64,000 bases of DNA from an uncultured Acetobacteraceae bacterium (GTDB lineage: Bacteria; Pseudomonadota; Alphaproteobacteria; Acetobacterales; Acetobacteraceae): the NCBI GenBank assembly GCA_903918315.1, contig CAIXEA010000203.1, positions 1 through 64,000 of the forward strand. The letters are read 5' to 3'. How positions within the stretch are numbered: position 1 is the stretch's first letter; every line of letters starts with the position of its first letter. The notes beneath the pieces are model-generated. The model did not search any database. It saw only the letters and a list, made by a program, of their open reading frames with translations, and was not told where the DNA came from. The position numbers were made by a program, and so were the translations under genes. Positions 1,665 through 18,865 of the stretch are shown here, piece by piece.

Positions 1665-1793
1665 CGCCGTTGGACGCGCCACTGCTACGGTGTGAGCGTC
1701 TACGTCTGAAGACAGACACGCTCCCGGGGCGTTTGACGTGCAATTTCACCGGATTGCTGATCGTTGCGCGATTCAGCCTAAACCGGTAAAGCT

Positions 1794-1925
1794 CTAAAGG
1801 CAGAATACGCCGGCCGCGATGCCATACAAATCCATCAGGATCGCGGTCCCGCGCACCGCCCATAGGTAGGTCCCGCCCAATACCAGCACGCTCACCCCGC
1901 CCCAGATACACAGCCGGGGTGTCAT
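1794..1925 (-). CDS. Small membrane protein, 43 residues
   Basis: A short open frame encoding MTPRLCIWGG, a hydrophobic segment with VSVLVLGGTYLWAV, then GTAILMDLYGIAAGVFCL at the C-terminus. It would make one or two short membrane helices. It lies 43 bp downstream of the MFS gene at 1969-3180 on the same strand, so it may be translated from the same transcript. No convincing Shine-Dalgarno is seen. The hydrophobic make-up, intact frame and position between real genes support a gene; I do not recognise a named family and assign no function. Confidence 0.5.
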   Translation of the reverse strand: MTPRLCIWGGVSVLVLGGTYLWAVRGTAILMDLYGIAAGVFCL

Positions 1926-1968
1926 GCCGGACAGCCGGACCGTTGATCCGCCCTTCTCACCCAACCCG

Positions 1969-3180
1969 TCACTCCGCCGCCGCGACCAACATCCGCGCCA
2001 CCGGCCGCTCTTTGATCGGCCAGTTGAACGCCGCCGCTATCAGTCCGAGGCCGGAAGATATCCACCACATCGCATCGTAAGAATGCGTCGCGTCATACAG
2101 AATCCCCGCCATGTACAGCCCCAGGAACGACCCCAACTGGTGCGAAAGGAACACGAAGCCGAACAGCATCGACATCCAGCCCGTGCCGAAGAACGTCGCC
2201 ACCATCGATGAGGTTAGCGGAATGGTTGACAGCCAGAACAGGCCGAGCGTCGCCGAAATCCCGATCACCGTGACCGGCGTCACCGGCATGAAGACAATGG
2301 CGGCGAACAGCACGGCGCGGGCGAAGTAGATGAAGCTCAGCCCCATCCGCTTCTGCATATATTTGCCGGACTTCCCGGCCAGCCAGGTCCCGATGATGTT
2401 CGCGATCCCCACCGACATCAGCGCCCAGACGGCGACCCAGGCGGGTAGGCCCTTGTCCTGCACGTAAGCGGGGAGATGGACGGAATAGAATGATACGTGG
2501 AACCCGCACACGAAGAAGCCAGTGGTCAATAGCCAGAAGCTGGGGAGGGAAAATGCCTCCCGAAAGGCATCGGGCAGGGTCTGGGTGCGCACCACGCCAT
2601 CAGCGCTGACGGGCTTGCCGCGCAGCACCACCGCCATCGGCACCATCGCGGTGCCGGTGATGGCCAGGGCGATCAGGCTGGTTTTCCAGCCCAGCGCCTC
2701 AATCAGCAGATGCGCATAGGGGAAGGCGAGGAAGCCGCCGATCCCGGCGGACATCCCGAGGGAGGCGATGGCGGCGGTGCGCCTCTCCGCCGGCACCGCG
2801 CGGCTGACCGCGCCCACCAAAGCAGTGATGCCGGTGCCGCTGACGCCGAGGCCCAGCAACACGCCGCTCACCATCAGTCCCGTGCTGCTCTGTGCCATGC
2901 CCATGACGACAAGGCCCGCTAGGGTGCAGAGCGCGGCGGAGGCGATCACCCGCCCGGCGCCATACCGATCCGCGATTGCGCCCGACAAGGCAGCGCCCAG
3001 GCCCCAGACGAGATTGGCAAGACCCATGGCGTTGGAAAACGGCTCCCGTCCGATGCCGAGGTCCTGCGTGACCGGGCGCAGATAGAGGCCCATGACCTGA
3101 CGCAGCCCCATCGCCATGCCGACGATACAGCCGGCTGCCAGCAGAATCAGCCAGACTGGCCGCGGTTTGGTTGGGTTCAT
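1969..3180 (-). CDS. MFS transporter, 12-helix (OFA/monocarboxylate-like)
   Basis: A 403-residue secondary transporter predicted in the inner membrane. Its N-terminus (WLILLAAGCIVGMAMGLRQV) is the first helix, followed by GLANLVWGLGAALSGAIADRYGAGRV, the conserved MFS loop. General layout recalls carriers of carboxylates such as the oxalate/formate group, but no substrate residue can be read. The gene diverges from the MarR-type regulator at 3236 with only 55 bp between starts, and an inverted repeat lies in that gap, so regulation by that protein is plausible. Confidence 0.85.
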   Translation of the reverse strand: MNPTKPRPVWLILLAAGCIVGMAMGLRQVMGLYLRPVTQDLGIGREPFSNAMGLANLVWGLGAALSGAIADRYGAGRVIASAALCTLAGLVVMGMAQSSTGLMVSGVLLGLGVSGTGITALVGAVSRAVPAERRTAAIASLGMSAGIGGFLAFPYAHLLIEALGWKTSLIALAITGTAMVPMAVVLRGKPVSADGVVRTQTLPDAFREAFSLPSFWLLTTGFFVCGFHVSFYSVHLPAYVQDKGLPAWVAVWALMSVGIANIIGTWLAGKSGKYMQKRMGLSFIYFARAVLFAAIVFMPVTPVTVIGISATLGLFWLSTIPLTSSMVATFFGTGWMSMLFGFVFLSHQLGSFLGLYMAGILYDATHSYDAMWWISSGLGLIAAAFNWPIKERPVARMLVAAAE

Positions 3181-3201
3181 GATCGGGACTCCCGGATGTT
3201 G

Positions 3202-3216
3202 ACGGGTTGGACCCGT
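3202..3216. promoter_or_regulatory. Inverted repeat in divergent promoter, candidate MarR operator
   Basis: ACGGGT-TGG-ACCCGT is a perfect 6-bp inverted repeat with a 3-base spacer, midway between the divergent starts of the MFS gene (3180) and the MarR gene (3236). MarR proteins usually bind such palindromes in shared promoters. The assignment is by position only. Confidence 0.4.
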
Positions 3217-3235
3217 GGGTGAATAATAAGGGCAT

Positions 3236-3865
3236 ATGAGTGTAAATCAACCAACCTCTCCAGGGCTTCCACCGCTGGAACCACGGATGCCGAACGACGT
3301 GGCCGAGGACCCTGTTGTGGCGGCCGTTCCTCTGCCCACCCGCCATTTGAACCCACGCGTTCGTTCCAACCCCGTCAGCCAAGGCGTGGGTGTGGACCTG
3401 TTTCAGCAGGGCCGTACAGCCAGCCTTCCCCCAGCGACCGTCGCATCCCCCTGCAATTGCCACGCACTGCGCCAAGCTGTGCGCCGCGTGACGCAGTTGT
3501 ACGACCATGCGCTCGCCCCCACCGGCCTGCGGGTCACCCAATTCTCTCTGCTGGCGCATCTCCGCGACTCCGGACCGATCACCCTGAAGGCCCTGGCGGG
3601 ATTGCTGGTGATGGACCGCGCGACCATCGGCCATAATCTGCGTCCGCTGGAAGCGCAGGGCCTGATCGCCCTGACCGTTGGCCCCGACCGCCGCAGCCGA
3701 CTCGTGCAACTGACGGAGGACGGTATGGCCCGCCTGCGCGCGGCCCGCCCCCTTTGGAAACAGGCGCAGACCCGGTTCGAAACCGCCTATGGTACCGAAG
3801 CGTCCTCAGCCCTGCGGGAGACCATGGTCAACATCGCCCATACCGATTTCGGGGTGCCCGCCTGA
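3236..3865 (+). CDS. MarR-family transcriptional regulator
   Basis: Winged-helix DNA-binding regulator. The MarR core runs from about residue 72 (CNCHALRQAVRRVTQLYDHA) through the recognition region LLVMDRATIGHNLRPLEAQG and the wing VGPDRRSRLVQL to the C-terminal dimer helix. MarR proteins are usually 140-170 residues; here the first ~70 residues are proline-rich with no family match. The frame can start at 3236 (AAGGG upstream), at ATG 3287, or at GTG near 3386/3392, so the true N-terminus is uncertain. The CNCHALRQA opening with two cysteines is seen in several MarR proteins and could sense oxidants, which is inference. Likely controls the divergent MFS gene. Confidence 0.82.
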   Translation: MSVNQPTSPGLPPLEPRMPNDVAEDPVVAAVPLPTRHLNPRVRSNPVSQGVGVDLFQQGRTASLPPATVASPCNCHALRQAVRRVTQLYDHALAPTGLRVTQFSLLAHLRDSGPITLKALAGLLVMDRATIGHNLRPLEAQGLIALTVGPDRRSRLVQLTEDGMARLRAARPLWKQAQTRFETAYGTEASSALRETMVNIAHTDFGVPA

Positions 3866-3932
3866 TCTTCCCGTTGCACGTCCGGCGTGAAGCAAGTACG
3901 CAGGCAGGGACCGCTGGGATACCGGAGCAAGC

Positions 3933-5078
3933 ATGGATCAGTCCCTCGCCGACAGGCTGACGGCATGGCGCCGCCATCTGCACGCCAATCCCGAACTGAC
4001 CTTGCAGGAGGCAAACACATCATTGTTCGTGCAGGAGAAACTGCGCGAACTGGGCGTGCCCTTCGTCGCCGGCGTCGGCGGGCATGGTGTGGTCGCGACC
4101 ATCGCACGTGGGTCGTCGAACCGCAGTGTCGGGCTGCGCGCCGATATGGACGCGCTCCCCATCCTGGAAACCTCGGGCGCGCTGCATAGCTCGCGCAATC
4201 CCGGGGTGATGCATGCCTGCGGCCATGACGGTCACACTACCTCGCTGCTAGGCGCGGCCGCGCTGCTGAGCCAGGATCCCAACTGGTCCGGCACGGTGCA
4301 ACTGGTCTTCCAGCCGGCCGAAGAAGGCGGCGGCGGCGCCAAGAGCATGATCGCCGACGGCTTGTTCGAGCGTTTTCCGATGGAGCGCATTTTCGGCTAC
4401 CATAATTGGCCCGGTCTCGATGCCGGCGCCGTGGCGGTGCATAACGGCCCGGTCATGGCCGCCGGCAACAGGCTGATCTTCACGATTACCGGCCACGGTG
4501 GCCACGCCGCGCTGCCGCATCTGACCCGCGACCCGATGATCGCGGCGGCGCATCTGACTCTGGCGCTGCAATCCATCGTCTCACGCAATGTCGATCCGCT
4601 CGACAGTGCTGTCATCACCATCGGCATCATCCAGGCCGGCACCGCCGCCAATCAGGTGCCCGGCGAAGTGCAGATGCGCGGCACCATGCGCACCCTGAGT
4701 GATGGCGTCCGCGATGCCGTCGAAGCGGCCATCCACCGTGTCGCCGCCGGGGTCGCGTTGACCTGCCAGGTCGAGATCGACGTCCAGATCCCCCGCGGCA
4801 ATCCCGTGACCCTGAACACCCCGGCCGAACGTGAGATCGCTGCTGAAGCGGTCCTCGAAGCCGGCCTGCCGCTCCGTCGCGATATGCTGCCCGCCATGAC
4901 CGGGGAGGATTTCGCCTGGTATCTCCACCGCCGCCCCGGCGCCTTCGTCTGGATCGGTAATGGTTCCGCCGCCGGCGGGCAGGAATTGCATAACGCCAAC
5001 TACGATTTCAACGACGACATCCTGCCGGCCGCTTCGGGCTTCCTGGCCGGGGTGGCGAAGCGCGCCTTGCGCGACTGA
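3933..5078 (+). CDS. M20 metallo-amidohydrolase (hippurate hydrolase/AbgB-like)
   Basis: Cytosolic zinc- or manganese-dependent amidohydrolase of the M20D group, which removes acyl groups from amino acids or cleaves similar amides. At 381 residues it has full family length. Motifs include GLRADMDALPI (residues 68-78), HACGHDGHT with the metal-ligand cysteine C96 and H98, and PAEEGGGGA with catalytic E130/E131; the dimerisation domain starts near residue 185 (GHGGHAALPH). It is followed by a GC hairpin (5083-5105) and then argC. Substrate is not readable; an indole-acetyl, benzoyl or N-acetyl amino acid is possible. Confidence 0.9.
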   Translation: MDQSLADRLTAWRRHLHANPELTLQEANTSLFVQEKLRELGVPFVAGVGGHGVVATIARGSSNRSVGLRADMDALPILETSGALHSSRNPGVMHACGHDGHTTSLLGAAALLSQDPNWSGTVQLVFQPAEEGGGGAKSMIADGLFERFPMERIFGYHNWPGLDAGAVAVHNGPVMAAGNRLIFTITGHGGHAALPHLTRDPMIAAAHLTLALQSIVSRNVDPLDSAVITIGIIQAGTAANQVPGEVQMRGTMRTLSDGVRDAVEAAIHRVAAGVALTCQVEIDVQIPRGNPVTLNTPAEREIAAEAVLEAGLPLRRDMLPAMTGEDFAWYLHRRPGAFVWIGNGSAAGGQELHNANYDFNDDILPAASGFLAGVAKRALRD

Positions 5079-5082
5079 GCCC

Positions 5083-5105
5083 GCGCGGGGATAGCTGCCC
5101 CGCGC
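5083..5105 (+). terminator. GC-rich hairpin after the M20 gene
   Basis: GCGCGGGG (5083-5090) pairs with CCCCGCGC (5098-5105) across a 7-base loop, five bases after the M20 stop codon. There is no clear T-run, so it may be an imperfect intrinsic terminator or a transcript-stabilising hairpin. Confidence 0.45.
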
Positions 5106-5169
5106 CATTCCCCCCTTGCAAACGCGGACCCGGACTAACACCATCGGTGGTGCGAAAGGAGAGCCAATC

Positions 5170-6093
5170 ATGGCGCATGGAACGGTATTCATCGACGGCG
5201 AGTCCGGCACGACCGGCCTGGGGATCCGAGAGCGGCTGCTTGCCATTCCCGAAGTCACGCTGAAGAGCCTGCCGTCCGAGCGACGCCGTGATCCGGCCGC
5301 GCGCCGTGACCTCATGGCCGAAGTGGATTTGGTGGTGCTCTGTCTGCCTGATGACGCGGCCAAGGAGTCTTCCGCCATGGCGGCCAGCCTCGGCAATGCC
5401 GCGCCCAAGGTGCTGGACGCCAGCACTGCGCACCGGGTCGATCCGGACTGGGTCTATGGCTTCGCGGAGATGATGCCCGGCCAGGCTGAGCGTATCGCCG
5501 CGGCCAACAATGTCGCCAATCCCGGCTGCTACCCGACCGGTGGCATCGGCCTGATCCGGCCGCTGGTCGATGCGGGCGTTCTGCCGCTCGATTACCCCGT
5601 CACCATCAATGCCGTGTCCGGCTATTCCGGCGGCGGCAAGGCGATGATCCAGGATCACGAAAGCACCGGCGGCCCGGCCTTCGAACTCTATGGCCTGAAG
5701 CTGGAGCATAAGCATGTGCCGGAAACCCAGCTTTATGGCGGGCTGACCCGTCGACCGATCTTCGTACCGTCCGTGGGGCATTTTCGGCAGGGAATGCTGG
5801 TGTCGATTCCGCTGCACCTTGATACGCTCAACGGCAAGCCGACGGGTGCGGATCTGCGGGCCATTCTGGAAGGGCGCTACGCCGGATCCCGTCTGGTCAA
5901 GGTCATGCCGCCGCAAGCCGATGGCAAGTTGGAGCCGGAGGCGCTGAACAACACCGACCTGTTGGAGCTTTATGTCCATGCCAATGAGACCCACCGCCAA
6001 GCCATCCTGGTCGCGCGGCTGGATAACCTCGGCAAGGGCGCGTCCGGCGCGGCGGTGCAGAATATCGGCCTGATGCTGGGGCTTGGGGCATGA
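5170..6093 (+). CDS. argC: N-acetyl-gamma-glutamyl-phosphate reductase (type 2 ArgC)
   Basis: Third enzyme of arginine synthesis: NADPH-dependent reduction of N-acetyl-glutamyl phosphate to the semialdehyde, in the cytosol. The 307-residue length and the [17 protein letters not shown] nucleotide-binding start mark the short type-2 form. The active-site cysteine is C120 in [18 protein letters not shown] and [10 protein letters not shown] follow. Start at 5170 is preceded by AAAGGAG; a start at 5116 would add an unrelated tail. The stop overlaps the next start by four bases, so translational coupling with the carbonic-anhydrase-like gene is likely. No other arg genes are in the window. Confidence 0.95.
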
Positions 6094-6644
6094 CCGACCT
6101 GCCTTATGGCGGGTTCGGCCCGATTTTCGAATATGAGGGCATCATCCCCAAGATTGCCCCCGATGCCTTCATCGCCCCCACCGCGGCGGTGATTGGCGAC
6201 GTCGAGGTCGGGTCCGAAACCGGCATCTGGTTTCACTGCCTGGTGCGTGGCGACATGGGCATCATCCGCATTGGCGCGCGCACCAATATCCAGGACGGTA
6301 CCGTGATCCATGTCGATTCTGGCGGCATGGACACCCATATCGGCGACGACGTGACCGTGGGCCACAACGCGGTAATCCACGCCTGCACCCTGAAAAACCG
6401 CGCCTTCGTCGGCATCAGCGCGACGGTGCTGGATGGCGCGGTGATCGAAGAAGGCGGCATGCTCGGCGCCGGTGGCCTGCTGACGCCAGGCAAGGTGATT
6501 GGCCCCAACGAGCTATGGACCGGTTCACCGGCGAAATTGCGCCGCGTGATGGATGCTGACGAGCAGGAAAAATTCGCCCGCAATGCAAGGGTTTACCGTG
6601 ATTTGGCGGTGCGATTCCGGACGCGGTTTCGGTCGGTGGAATAG
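6090..6644 (+). CDS. Gamma-carbonic anhydrase family protein (YrdA/CaiE-like)
   Basis: Left-handed beta-helix trimer protein of 184 residues built of hexapeptide repeats (for example [20 protein letters not shown]). The three zinc-ligand histidines of the gamma class are in place: H74 (VIHVD), H92 and H97 (GHNAVIH). Many relatives show weak or no CO2-hydrating activity, so the catalytic role is unproven. Start overlaps argC as ATGA, and joint transcription with argC is expected. It is followed at once by the repeat-bounded GxxExxY segment. Confidence 0.88.
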
Positions 6645-6666
6645 GTCGGGTTTGTGCGGTGGGATG

Positions 6667-6711
6667 TTTTTTTGACACTGATAAAAACCGATTAACACCG
6701 ACAAAAATCGA
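6667..6711. repeat. Left flanking repeat of the GxxExxY cassette
   Basis: A T7 run followed by loosely repeated GAT(A/T)AA...CCGAT units (CTGATAAAAACCGATTAAC...). The right-hand sequence 7083-7122, read on the minus strand, starts with the same T7 and has the same CACxGATxAA layout: I count 26 identical bases in a 39-base gapless alignment. The copies therefore face each other like terminal inverted repeats. Confidence 0.5.
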
Positions 6712-6730
6712 CGGTCCGCCGATGAGGGGC

Positions 6731-7108
6731 TCAGGCGGCTATCCGTTTTATTTCCAGCCGTGATTTGCCGAAATTTATGAGCATGCATAGCCGTTTATTG
6801 GTGGTTCTGAGGTAATTCAGGTATTGGGCTTGGTGTTCGGGGCCGAGGGCTTTGGCGGTTTTCAATTCGACAATAATCTGATCTTCGATCAGGAAATCGG
6901 CGACGAATTCGCCGATAATAATGTCATCATACGGCACACCCATCTTACGCTGCGCCATCACGGCCAATTCCGCCTCGCGTATCTCATGCGCCAGCGCATT
7001 GCCGTTAACCTTTTCCGGAAACCCCACGCCCAGCGTATCGGTCACCCTGAACGCGCAGCCGATGATACGCGCGGTCACACCGTTCAATCGATTCTTATCC
7101 GTGTTCAT
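6731..7108 (-). CDS. GxxExxY family protein (PD-(D/E)XK-like)
   Basis: A 125-residue protein of the GxxExxY family, a nuclease-fold group of unknown role. The naming motif is seen as GFPEKVN (residues 29-35), so the terminal tyrosine is asparagine here. A PD-(D/E)XK-like core is visible: D71 in VADFLI, then VELK with E81 and K83, then Q94 in AQYLNYL. The start at 7108 opens inside the right flanking repeat, so the first codons (MNTDKN) are repeat-encoded. The gene is flanked on both sides by related sequences in opposite orientation, is more AT-rich than its neighbours, and looks like a transferred cassette. Function unknown. Confidence 0.8.
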   Translation of the reverse strand: MNTDKNRLNGVTARIIGCAFRVTDTLGVGFPEKVNGNALAHEIREAELAVMAQRKMGVPYDDIIIGEFVADFLIEDQIIVELKTAKALGPEHQAQYLNYLRTTNKRLCMLINFGKSRLEIKRIAA

Positions 7109-7122
7109 CCGTGGTAAAAAAA
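7083..7122. repeat. Right flanking repeat of the GxxExxY cassette
   Basis: On the minus strand this reads T7, then ACCACGGATGAACACGGATAAGAATCGA, a tract with two CACGGAT units. It faces the related tract at 6667-6711. It also supplies the start codon and first residues of the GxxExxY gene. Confidence 0.5.
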
Positions 7123-7190
7123 TAGGCGGGTCCAAACGCAAGAACTGCGCCCAGACCCGCCCTTCCTCACCACAAACCGTAAGGCAACCG

Positions 7191-8345
7191 TTAACGCCCG
7201 ATAATCCGCCGCGCGATCGCCATCCGGTGCACTTCCGACGGGCCTTCATAGACCCGCATGGTGCGGACCTTCTGCGCCATCAATTGCAGGGGCAGCTCTT
7301 TTGCCACGCCCATCGCACCGAAAGACTGTTGCGCATGATCCACGATCTCCGTCGCCATTTCGGTGCCGTAGAGTTTGATCATCGACGCCTCGGTGCGCAC
7401 GTCCTTGCCAGCGTCGGCTTTCGCCGCGGCATCGTAGACCATCAGCCGGCAGGCATGGATCTTGGTCGCCGCATCAGCAATCCACCACTGAATCGCCTGC
7501 CGATCGGCCAAGCGTTGCCCGAAGGTGACGCGCTGCTTGGTGTGATCGACCATCATATCCAACGCGCGGCGGGACATGCCGATGCACCAGGCGCCCATCT
7601 GCAGGCGGCGCACCGTCAGGCGCAATTGCATCGGGGCGTAACCCTTGCCTTCCACGCCGAGGATCTGGGTGGCGGGGATGCGACAATCCTCGAACACCAG
7701 TTCGTAGGTGCGTTGGCCGCCGATCATGGGGATTTCGCGCTCGATGATGAAGCCTTTGGTACCGCGTTCGACGATGAAGGCGGTGACGCCGTCGGCGCGC
7801 TTGCCTTCGCCAGTGCGGGCCATGACGATGACGAAATCGGCTTTCGGCACCCGGCTGACCCAGATCTTGCGGCCGTTGATGACCCAGTCGTTGCCATCCT
7901 TCACCGCGCGGGTGGTCATCCCGGCGGGGTCGCCGCCGGCCCCGGGCTCGGAAATGGCGATGGCGGAATGCGCTTCACCGCGGGCATAGGGGTCGAGGTA
8001 TTTCTTCTTCTGCTCATCATTCGCCACTGCGATCAGCATGTGCAGGTTGGGGCTGTCGGGCGGGAAGGTGAAAGGCACGCAAGTGCGGCCCTGTTCCTCA
8101 TAGACGCCCATCAGCGCGGTATAGGGCAGGTTGGCGCCGCCATATTCTTCCGGGACGTCCAGGCCCCACAGGCCCAGTTCCTTGCACTTCGCGAGCAATT
8201 CCGCTTCCTGTTCCGCCGGTAGGCCGGACGACTGGCCCGACGCTTCGCGCGCCAGGGTCAGCTTTTCCAGGGGCATCACATCGCGTTCGATGAATTTGGC
8301 CACAAGCTCCTGCAGCATGCGGTGTTCTTCGGGGAGTTCGAACAT
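7191..8345 (-). CDS. Acyl-CoA dehydrogenase
   Basis: FAD enzyme that introduces a trans-2 double bond in an acyl-CoA and passes electrons to ETF. At 384 residues it is full length: N-terminal helices, the AISEPGAGGDPAGM flavin/substrate segment (residues 133-146), the VTFGQRLADRQAIQ helix, and a C-terminal RVYEGPSEVHR whose glutamate is the usual catalytic base. It starts 23 bp after the transglutaminase gene on the same strand, so it may be the last gene of the amidoligase operon, although its chemistry has no obvious tie to it. Chain-length preference cannot be read. Confidence 0.92.
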   Translation of the reverse strand: MFELPEEHRMLQELVAKFIERDVMPLEKLTLAREASGQSSGLPAEQEAELLAKCKELGLWGLDVPEEYGGANLPYTALMGVYEEQGRTCVPFTFPPDSPNLHMLIAVANDEQKKKYLDPYARGEAHSAIAISEPGAGGDPAGMTTRAVKDGNDWVINGRKIWVSRVPKADFVIVMARTGEGKRADGVTAFIVERGTKGFIIEREIPMIGGQRTYELVFEDCRIPATQILGVEGKGYAPMQLRLTVRRLQMGAWCIGMSRRALDMMVDHTKQRVTFGQRLADRQAIQWWIADAATKIHACRLMVYDAAAKADAGKDVRTEASMIKLYGTEMATEIVDHAQQSFGAMGVAKELPLQLMAQKVRTMRVYEGPSEVHRMAIARRIIGR

Positions 8346-8368: not shown

Positions 8369-9238
8369 TCAGACTGCCAGTAAATCCACGCTGACATCCA
8401 GCCTATGGGCGCCGCCGCCCAGAATCACGCCGCGCACCGGGCTCAGATCGCCATAGTCGCGGCCCCAGCCCAGCACCACATGCTCGTCACTGACGATCAG
8501 GTTGTTCGTGGGGTCGACATCCACCCAGCCGAAGGCCGGACCCAGCCAGCAACCCACCCAGGCATGCGACTGATCGGCGCCTCGGCGGCGGACCTGGCCG
8601 GGCGGCGGGCGGGTGCGGATATAGCCCGACACATAGCGCGCTGGCAGGCCGAGGCTGCGCAGGCCGGAGATCATCAGATGGGTGAAATCCTGGCACACGC
8701 CCGCGCGCTGGGCCATGACACGGCCGACCGGTGTGGCAATCGTGGTCACGCCGGCCTGGAAGGTGAAATCCGTGCGGATGCGGGCCAACAGATCGATCAA
8801 TCCGACCAGAATCGGTCGGCCAGGCGGGAAGGATTTCGCGACATAGACCGCAACGTCGCGATCAGCCGCGACCATGGGGCTGGCGAAGGTGAATTCGGCG
8901 GCCTGCCATTGGGCGGGGCCACCCTCGCGGGCGGTGGCGACCTGTTCCCAGGGCGGCGTACTGTCGGGGTCAGGGGGCGCTGGGAAGGCGACCTCCACCT
9001 CCGCATGCAGGGTGATCGTGAAATGCGGGTGAGCCTGGTCGAGGAACAGCCAGTTCACCTCATTGCCAAAATGATCGATGCCCTGTGACTGGCGTGCCGG
9101 AGTGGGTTCGGCGACGATGGCACGAGAAATCACGGTCTGATGCGGCAGCGCACGGGGCAGCAGATGCACCATGTGGCACGCCAGATCCACCGCTTCGGCA
9201 TAGGTGAAGGTAGTTTTGTGTTCGACCTGAAATCTCAT
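8369..9238 (-). CDS. Transglutaminase-like cysteine protein (COG1305)
   Basis: A 289-residue protein with an N-terminal bacterial transglutaminase beta domain (residues 1-90) and a transglutaminase/protease core. The triad is visible: C182 in AGVCQDFTH, H225 in QSHAWVG, D242 in VDVDPTNN. Members may hydrolyse or transfer amide bonds rather than cross-link. Its start overlaps the stop of the ATP-grasp/alpha-E fusion by four bases (ATGA), so it is translationally coupled to it. No signal peptide, so it is probably cytosolic. In this conserved neighbourhood it is proposed to cut or modify a peptide made by the ATP-grasp partner. Confidence 0.9.
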   Translation of the reverse strand: MRFQVEHKTTFTYAEAVDLACHMVHLLPRALPHQTVISRAIVAEPTPARQSQGIDHFGNEVNWLFLDQAHPHFTITLHAEVEVAFPAPPDPDSTPPWEQVATAREGGPAQWQAAEFTFASPMVAADRDVAVYVAKSFPPGRPILVGLIDLLARIRTDFTFQAGVTTIATPVGRVMAQRAGVCQDFTHLMISGLRSLGLPARYVSGYIRTRPPPGQVRRRGADQSHAWVGCWLGPAFGWVDVDPTNNLIVSDEHVVLGWGRDYGDLSPVRGVILGGGAHRLDVSVDLLAV

Positions 9239-17919: not shown

Positions 17920-18765
17920 ATGCGCATCGCCATCACCCATATCAGCGAATATCGCTACGACGGCCCGGCTGGTTCGGCGGTGCAGGCGCTGCGGCTGACG
18001 CCAGCACCGGTTAAAGGCCAGAGGCTGGTGTCGTGGACGATCGATGCGCCGGGGATCGACAGCGCGTGCTCGTACACCGATGGGTTCGGCAATCTGGTGC
18101 ATCTCGTCTCCCCGCCGGCAGATTCCACGGTGGTGCGGATCGCGGCCAGCGGCGTGGTGGAAACGACCGATACCGGCGGCGTCTCCGGCCTGACCGAGGA
18201 GGCGGTGGTGGCTGGCGCATTTTTGCGCACCAGCCCGATGACCGAAGCGGACGAGGCGATCGCGGCGATGGCAGAGGCGGCGCGCAGGGATGACCGCCTC
18301 GCGACCCTGCACGTGCTGATGGATGCGGTCAGCGAGCAGGTCGTCTACGAACCCGGAAGCACCCATGCCCAGACCACCGCGGCCGCGGCCTTCGAGGCCA
18401 AACGCGGCGTGTGCCAGGACCACGCGCATGTCTTCATCGCGGCTTGCCGGTTCCTGCGCATTCCCGCCCGCTACGTGACCGGCTACCTCCTGCTGGAAGA
18501 CGGCGCCGAGGCGCCAGCGCATCATGCCTGGGCGGAGGCCTATGTGGATGACCTCGGCTGGGTCGGGTTCGACGCGGCGAATGCTCTCTGCCCGACGGAT
18601 CGCTATGTGCGACTGGGCGCGGGGCTGGATGCGGCATCGGCGGCGCCGATTCGCGGCATCCGGCGCATGAACGGGGAGGAAAGCCTGACGGTCGATGTCG
18701 ACGTGCAGGCGATGGCGCAGAGCCAGTCCCAATCGCAATCCGGCGGGTCCCAGTCGCAGCAATAG
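17920..18765 (+). CDS. Transglutaminase-like protein with SQ-repeat tail
   Basis: A 281-residue relative of the gene at 8369. N-terminal beta domain (ITHISEYRYDGPAG), then the core with C165 (RGVCQDHAH), H202 (HHAWAEAYV) and D218 (VGFDAANAL). The last 14 residues are almost only serine and glutamine (SQSQSQSQSGGSQSQQ), absent from the paralogue. A Gln-rich tail on a transglutaminase-fold enzyme could be its own substrate or a flexible tether, which is inference. Third gene of the rightward operon; the AT-rich region after it ends the unit. Confidence 0.92.
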   Translation: MRIAITHISEYRYDGPAGSAVQALRLTPAPVKGQRLVSWTIDAPGIDSACSYTDGFGNLVHLVSPPADSTVVRIAASGVVETTDTGGVSGLTEEAVVAGAFLRTSPMTEADEAIAAMAEAARRDDRLATLHVLMDAVSEQVVYEPGSTHAQTTAAAAFEAKRGVCQDHAHVFIAACRFLRIPARYVTGYLLLEDGAEAPAHHAWAEAYVDDLGWVGFDAANALCPTDRYVRLGAGLDAASAAPIRGIRRMNGEESLTVDVDVQAMAQSQSQSQSGGSQSQQ

Positions 18766-18865
18766 GCTGCCTTTCCCCCAGATCACGTTGATCACTGACC
18801 GAATCCCAACGCACTCGCATGGTCCCGTCATGTCGATGCAGATCGGCGCGACCTGCGTATCAGTG

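Follow-up and report, generated by a model that had tools for sequence, protein, structure and literature searches.

GxxExxY nuclease genes and matched arms of short repeats as a probable chromosomal element system resembling RAYT/REPIN, with a putative relic in an Acetobacteraceae genome

Small genes of the GxxExxY family were found in many cases to lie between two facing arms made of repeat units of about 10 bp, and the coupling of the encoded protein and its arms is well supported. We consider it fairly probable that gene and arms together form a widespread chromosomal nuclease-plus-repeat element system, which would work in a RAYT/REPIN-like manner with a PD-(D/E)XK enzyme, and of which the unit described here would be a decayed member. 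This unit is located in a stretch of 64,000 nucleotides from an uncultured Acetobacteraceae bacterium (contig CAIXEA010000203.1), which was analysed as a whole and is referred to as the window. The features of the locus are listed in Table 1.

Table 1 Features of the GxxExxY locus and its neighbours in the window
Feature	Position	Strand	Remark
argC-like gene	5116-6093		precedes the carbonic-anhydrase-like gene
Left neighbour, gamma-carbonic-anhydrase-like hexapeptide protein	6090-6644	+	name from sequence reading
Downstream arm (left in the window)	6667-6711	+	T7, then units of about 10 bp: GACACTGATA / AAAACCGATT / AACACCGACA / AAAATCGA
GxxExxY / PDDEXK_3 gene, 125 aa	6731-7108	-	within a longer ORF, 6731-7249
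Upstream arm (right in the window)	7085-7122	-	T7-ACCACGGATG-AACACGGATA-AGAATCGA
Terminator-like hairpin, 3' end of the dehydrogenase-like gene	7125-7161	-	-35.2 kcal/mol, z -6.4
Right neighbour, acyl-CoA-dehydrogenase-like gene	7191-8345	-	name from sequence reading

Both ends of the unit at 6667-7122 begin, from the outside in, with T7 followed by CAC-GAT-AA units of about 10 bp, and 26 of 39 bases are identical between them in an ungapped comparison. The initial annotation, which had described a nuclease gene between such facing repeats, was thus accurate, and the gene is a member of both TIGR04256 (5e-36, 123.7 bits, cut-off 35) and PF13366 (4e-35, 121.1 bits, cut-off 22) by their curated cut-offs. 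It had also derived the start of the gene from the repeat, and indeed the upstream arm encodes the start codon and the first residues, MNTDKNR (ATG AAC ACG GAT AAG AAT CGA). At a spacing of 456, this unit alone among 63,544 places in the window reaches an identity of 26; four separate places reach it when spacings of 350-650 are allowed (19.1 million comparisons). A pair at 18297-18830 showed 28 of 39 identical bases, but it consists of GC-rich sequence that reads as coding and was taken as chance. In gapped local alignment, the arm score of the window copy was 25, compared to a 95th percentile of 26 at control sites. Because of this weak score, the window copy alone is no proof of an inverted-repeat element, and the comparison with other copies had to decide. 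The T7 at the outer end of the upstream arm is at the same time the T-run behind the terminator-like hairpin, which is predicted to be strong.

The window protein retains the aligned D, the ExK and the glutamate of GxxE, yet its GxxExxY motif reads GFPEKVN, in which G and E are kept and the tyrosine characteristic of the family motif is replaced by asparagine; in addition, one leucine is replaced by proline. The dN/dS ratio of this copy was 0.39 and 0.21 against two other copies (L142 and L014, respectively), with dS saturated. The upstream-arm array (7096-7113) holds the sole exact match to CRCRGATRNACRCRGATR in the window, and a single exact GAT-array match was counted in the whole genome of 5.04 Mb, the window arm being one. 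The same genome carries three full-length GxxExxY copies and two fragments, as well as one lone 33-bp piece that resembles the upstream arm (88% identical). Beside another of its GxxExxY copies, a contig end (L003, 1-130) consists of tandem TTATCAG heptamers. Taking the divergent arms, the change of the motif tyrosine to asparagine and the lack of another exact GAT array in the genome together, the window copy is probably a decayed relic.

The AlphaFold model predicted for the window protein is confident (pLDDT 96, pTM 0.88) and, among solved structures, comes closest to lambda-type exonucleases and to SSO0001, taken here as a Cas4 protein (Foldseek E values: LHK-Exo 8e-4, SSO0001 9e-4; VIA Z of 9.7 and 3.4 A over 98 residues for SSO0001). 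The resemblance to these proteins is evidence of a common fold and not of a function. No sequence relative of the window protein was detected in the PDB at E values up to 1. The invariant residues of the GxxExxY alignment fit the active site of the PD-(D/E)XK nuclease motif. A Pfam search with the window protein returned nothing but PDDEXK_3 and thus no known transposase family, and the TIGR04256 and PF13366 listings returned name neither a function nor repeats. Four proteins were compared with the PADLOC defence models; three matched no family, and one gave weak matches to Cas4 (E values of 0.006 and 0.008).

Matches to the GxxExxY family were present in 29 of the 33 genomes of the genus Rhodopila and in 3 of 26 outside the genus, the number in a genome ranging from 0 to 27 when fragments and copies with stops are counted. 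We scored the arms of each copy as the best inverted repeat between its 300-bp flanks and took false gene positions within these loci as controls. An arm score of at least 36 was obtained for 36 of 92 copies of the genus set. Among the controls, 1 of 321 sites reached this score, and among pairs taken between loci, 1.5% did; the other 56 copies had no matched arm pair at this score. These 92 copies, 91 from the genus and one from another family of the class (L011, score 19), remain from 103 HMM hits after exclusion of two that repeat the window locus, five that are partial and four whose flanks are short. L011 is also part of the genus set in the autocorrelation and CtrA-box analyses and falls below the score threshold of the covariation test described below.

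A second set consisted of loci from named records, the titles of which span about a dozen phyla, many of them metagenome bins. Here, a score of at least 30 was reached by 52 of 71 loci, whereas 3 of 445 false positions did so, as did 108 of the 1746 pairs taken between loci. Nine of the original 80 loci were left out, two from the same genus (L147 and L157) and seven with short flanks; one further genus member (L155) is counted among the 71, while it was excluded from the covariation, density, autocorrelation and CtrA-box counts. The packaging of one non-transposase gene between inverted repeats, as initially proposed for the window, is therefore real and general. Wherever a matched pair was found, both ends carried an agreeing unit, and the unit sequence varied by locus (ACGCAGATGA, CACGGAGA, CGCCAAGA, CACGAAGA and others). 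Across 77 loci of this kind, arrays were dense close to the gene (7.2 per kb up to 200 bp from it) and sparse farther out (0.25-0.39 per kb past 800 bp). They faced each other, with 77 forward and 21 reverse upstream, and 96 reverse and 19 forward downstream. Autocorrelation in the genus set had a local peak at lag 10 (0.305 near the gene, 0.259 far from it); elsewhere, the peaks were at lags 8-9 (0.308 and 0.313 near, 0.251 and 0.291 far), where lag 9 is partly the codon period. Of four copies examined from plasmid records, L343 had an arm pair, with a score of 45, and the others scored 24-26. In Sphingomonas parapaucimobilis, a GxxExxY gene is located between fabD and fabG (L346, 2971-3399); this copy has an array upstream only and no matching downstream arm (score 26).

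The arms were found to follow the protein. Among 38 copies of the genus, arm similarity correlated with protein identity (rho 0.63; 0 of 2000 permutations), also after removal of pairs more than 70% identical (rho 0.57; 0 of 2000 permutations). For 53 copies outside the genus the correlation was lower (rho 0.15; 1 and 5 of 2000 permutations). Within the genus, proteins of the GxGF..EK type (F-E-K) had 13 GAT arms, no AG arms and 6 others, whereas those of the GxGL..ES type (L-E-S) had 10 AG arms, no GAT arms and 3 others. This subgroup rule fails outside the genus, where arms are nearly all of the AG type whatever the motif (3 AG for F-E-S, 6 for L-E-K, 34 for L-E-S, and 8 other), and where one L-E-S protein, from a Bacteroides (L173), has GAT arms.

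Searching the genome and its relatives for the repeat ends with or without the gene, as the initial annotation had proposed, revealed arms that stand apart from any GxxExxY gene and are almost identical to gene-flanking arms of that genome. Searches with whole loci gave many additional hits to arms alone, many of which, when read directly, were gene-less arm pairs, and others single arms or tandem runs. We inspected 20 stretches around arm hits in two genomes, G030 and G018: 13 contained facing pairs of the type of one GxxExxY locus (L032) within 500 bp, one contained a pair 3.7 kb apart, four had single arms and one had four arms on the same strand; the remaining stretch, fetched for another arm type, had none. 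The widely spaced pair (L298, G030:C33, arms at 1717-1753 and 5420-5456) encloses other DNA, and it is possible that it represents a compound unit with cargo. In G030, gene-less pairs are commoner than gene-bearing ones. In its assembly, contigs C17 and C55 are broken at the position that corresponds to the L032 element, and repeats of this kind would be expected to fragment draft assemblies. Among the matches listed in a pattern search, which comprise 97 array clusters in 7 of the 33 genomes, 63 clusters had a partner on the opposite strand within 600 bp, which faced the cluster in 32 cases and was in outward order in 31; 2 clusters had a partner on the same strand, and 32 stood alone. Of the 31 clusters with an outward partner, 29 belong to G029, taken as Rhodopila globiformis. 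Fourteen outward doublets of this genome (L323-L335 and L337) have a core of about 95 bp in common, and the outer flanks are similar in several of them; they are a distinct sub-family. The spacing between two arms ranged from tens to hundreds of bases.

The exact GAT pattern occurred in 27 of the 29 genus genomes that carry the gene and in none of the 4 that do not (Fisher 3.7e-4), a comparison in which the latter group is only four, possibly related genomes, two of them 80-84% complete. The reversed control pattern was absent from all 33 genomes, and gene copy number was weakly correlated with the number of GAT arrays (Spearman 0.41, p 0.019). An AG-type pattern, searched in 59 genomes, was not cleanly linked to the gene (10 of 32 genomes with it, 3 of 27 without it). 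The three gene-less genomes (G034, G045 and G050) had one match each, and the reversed control gave 3 matches; therefore, only the GAT pattern was used for the association at genome level.

Fixed sites that are empty, filled or filled differently provide a further line of evidence. Two elements, L133 and L145, have different surroundings, and their homology ends at the arm ends (260 bp compared), while that of L029 and L103 extends some tens of bases past the arms. The left gene at the L023 site is also the left gene at L113. When this gene was inspected by eye in 16 genomes, six had elements of four kinds after it, which in two cases were doublets followed at some distance by a GxxExxY gene, and ten had no element in the approximately 450 bp read. 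The two flanks of the L029 site are 57 bp apart in G005, and in G010 other DNA is also inserted. At the L023 and L029 sites, the flanking genes are conserved and the intergenic DNA is too diverged for exact borders. A slot beside pyrH holds an element in G030, which is absent in G018, where the flanking genes are 91% identical and other intergenic DNA is present. In Parabacteroides distasonis, radA and the gene of an FAD-dependent protein lie 13 bp apart, which represents an empty slot; the same slot carries an AG-type element in Bacteroides finegoldii and B. neonati (proteins 75% identical), a GAT-type element in L173, and an unrelated gene in Phocaeicola massiliensis. Between L173 and the AG-type slots, the GxxExxY proteins are 54-56% identical, although the RadA proteins of L173 and B. 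finegoldii are 88% identical; a joint exchange of arms and gene would explain this most simply.

For the window copy itself, no empty counterpart on the argC side was found, the flanking genes being on different draft contigs in all 29 relatives that have both; the expectation of an empty site is thus borne out at other fixed slots and not at this one. In G032, the gene of window positions 8384-9192 stands in opposite orientation about 100 bp past the argC-like and carbonic-anhydrase-like genes. In G026, which has the highest identity at the window locus, the dehydrogenase-like gene adjoins the transporter of 105-1664, and the neighbourhood at 1665-7190 is rearranged relative to this genome. 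Due to such rearrangement in relatives, the history of the window insertion is not readable. The initial annotation had reported no target-site duplication, and none was seen by eye at any of the elements and slots inspected, the flanks of which are too diverged for a strict test. Likewise, neither an excision product nor an insertion polymorphic within a species was seen in the genomes examined. Mobility had been considered unlikely if relatives showed no empty sites and the flanks no similarity elsewhere; dispersed repeats and empty slots do exist. The suggestion of self-spread accordingly stands as far as gene-less repeats elsewhere and variably filled slots are concerned, and is not borne out by a target-site duplication or an excised form. 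On these data, movement of the element is putative and the best available reading.

Alternatively, the arms might be regulatory or recognition sites of a resident, non-mobile nuclease, serving autoregulation, a regulon or chromosome structuring, with vertical inheritance and frequent loss. Several observations are in line with this. In two orthologous gene-less pairs of G030 and G018, the arms are nearly identical while interiors and flanks have diverged; the pairs appear old and stable, a picture closer to prolonged vertical inheritance than to recent movement. The dN/dS ratio was 0.03-0.22 in 11 related gene pairs, well below 1, indicating that the protein is in use and that purifying selection acts on the gene in these pairs. 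The gene is nearly absent from mobile replicons: with one protein query, matches were found in 8 of 72,556 plasmid records, some of which carry core genes and resemble pieces of chromosomes; a different query matched none of 50,697 phage records, and an alignment search with a single peptide pattern gave no confirmed relative among viral contigs. This scarcity leaves spread from cell to cell unexplained. Moreover, the motif TTAA-N7-TTAA, presumably the CtrA consensus, was found within 160 bp upstream of many copies of the genus set (exact in 18 of 94, with at most one mismatch in 49 of 94), compared to 0 and 1, respectively, of 87 other ORFs. In other clades, it was exact in 0 of 71 and had one mismatch in 10 of 71 (background segments, 187 of 3223). 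However, a resident nuclease fits poorly with the range in copy number from 0 to 27 matches, with the same element in different surroundings (L133 and L145) and with slots that hold different elements or none, and autoregulation needs no matching downstream arm. We therefore regard this explanation as unlikely, though still to be taken seriously.

It appears improbable that the repeats mark the termini of MITE-like elements which an unrelated transposase mobilises, with GxxExxY as a repeatedly captured cargo. Such a scenario would account for the excess of gene-less over gene-bearing pairs in G030 and for the lack of a target-site duplication connecting the nuclease with movement, but not for arms that follow the protein subgroup in the genus, for a gene-arm association in records whose names cover about a dozen phyla, or for the four gene-less genus genomes without GAT arrays. 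We give little credence to a role of the arms in RNA, in which they would pair across the gene in the transcript and thereby act as terminators or processing signals of an operon-lodged gene: the arms are complementary, the gene lies between co-directional genes in Sphingomonas and Bacteroides, and one window arm adjoins a terminator-like hairpin, yet Rfam gave no match in the nine loci searched, doublets occur in outward order too, and protein-arm covariation has no simple place in it. Homing, in which cleavage of empty alleles by the nuclease would be followed by its copying through recombination between flanks, the arms being incidental, would explain presence and absence at fixed slots, but it is very hard to reconcile with the same element in different flanks and predicts neither gene-less doublets nor the match of both arms.

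The preferred reading, a nuclease-plus-repeat element, has its closest parallel in RAYT (TnpA-REP), a gene described as flanked by its own repeats, which are dispersed as inverted doublets (PMC3116915, PMC8266576) and co-evolve with it (PMC8266576). The likeness is threefold, since here, too, repeats of its own border one small nuclease-type gene, occur dispersed as inverted doublets that lack the gene, and co-vary with the protein. In contrast to RAYT, an HUH single-strand transposase, the GxxExxY enzyme is of the PD-(D/E)XK type; as it is not an HUH protein, the element falls outside RAYT/REPIN, which nevertheless is the closest system in its working. Further differences concern the arms, which are variable arrays of units of about 10 bp whereas REP is one short palindrome with a tetranucleotide tag, their variable spacing, and the high number of gene matches in some genomes. 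Insertion sequences have inverted terminal repeats around one gene, and their MITE derivatives have the same ends without the gene. The elements described here resemble them in both respects, but they encode no known transposase family, show no visible target-site duplication and have an arm sequence that shifts between subgroups. The open-access literature searched yielded neither the longer repeat strings of the arms nor a text combining nuclease with inverted-repeat terms, and those open-access passages that name GxxExxY or PF13366 are not about repeats.

In this reading, the gene of a small PD-(D/E)XK nuclease is enclosed by two arms that face each other. The low dN/dS ratios count in favour of such an element as well, and the CtrA-like motif upstream of many genus copies suggests that their expression may be timed by the cell cycle. 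With units of about one DNA turn, several protein monomers could line up on one face of an arm. We infer that the protein binds its own arms, that bound proteins may pair the two facing arms and that cuts would be made at or near them; host repair of such cuts could then copy or move gene-bearing as well as gene-less pairs.

On the broader proposal that GxxExxY proteins are enzymes of an undescribed repeat-mobilising class, with subfamilies that would each recognise a particular unit of about 10 bp in facing arrays and maintain gene-bearing and gene-less pairs in chromosomes across about a dozen phyla, and with a wiring to CtrA in Rhodopila, we are evenly divided. If true, a lone PD-(D/E)XK nuclease would do the job of a transposase and drive a repeat-spreading system parallel to REPIN/RAYT. 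This would also explain the short-period repeats beside these genes in many phyla and provide an orphan nuclease family with a testable role.
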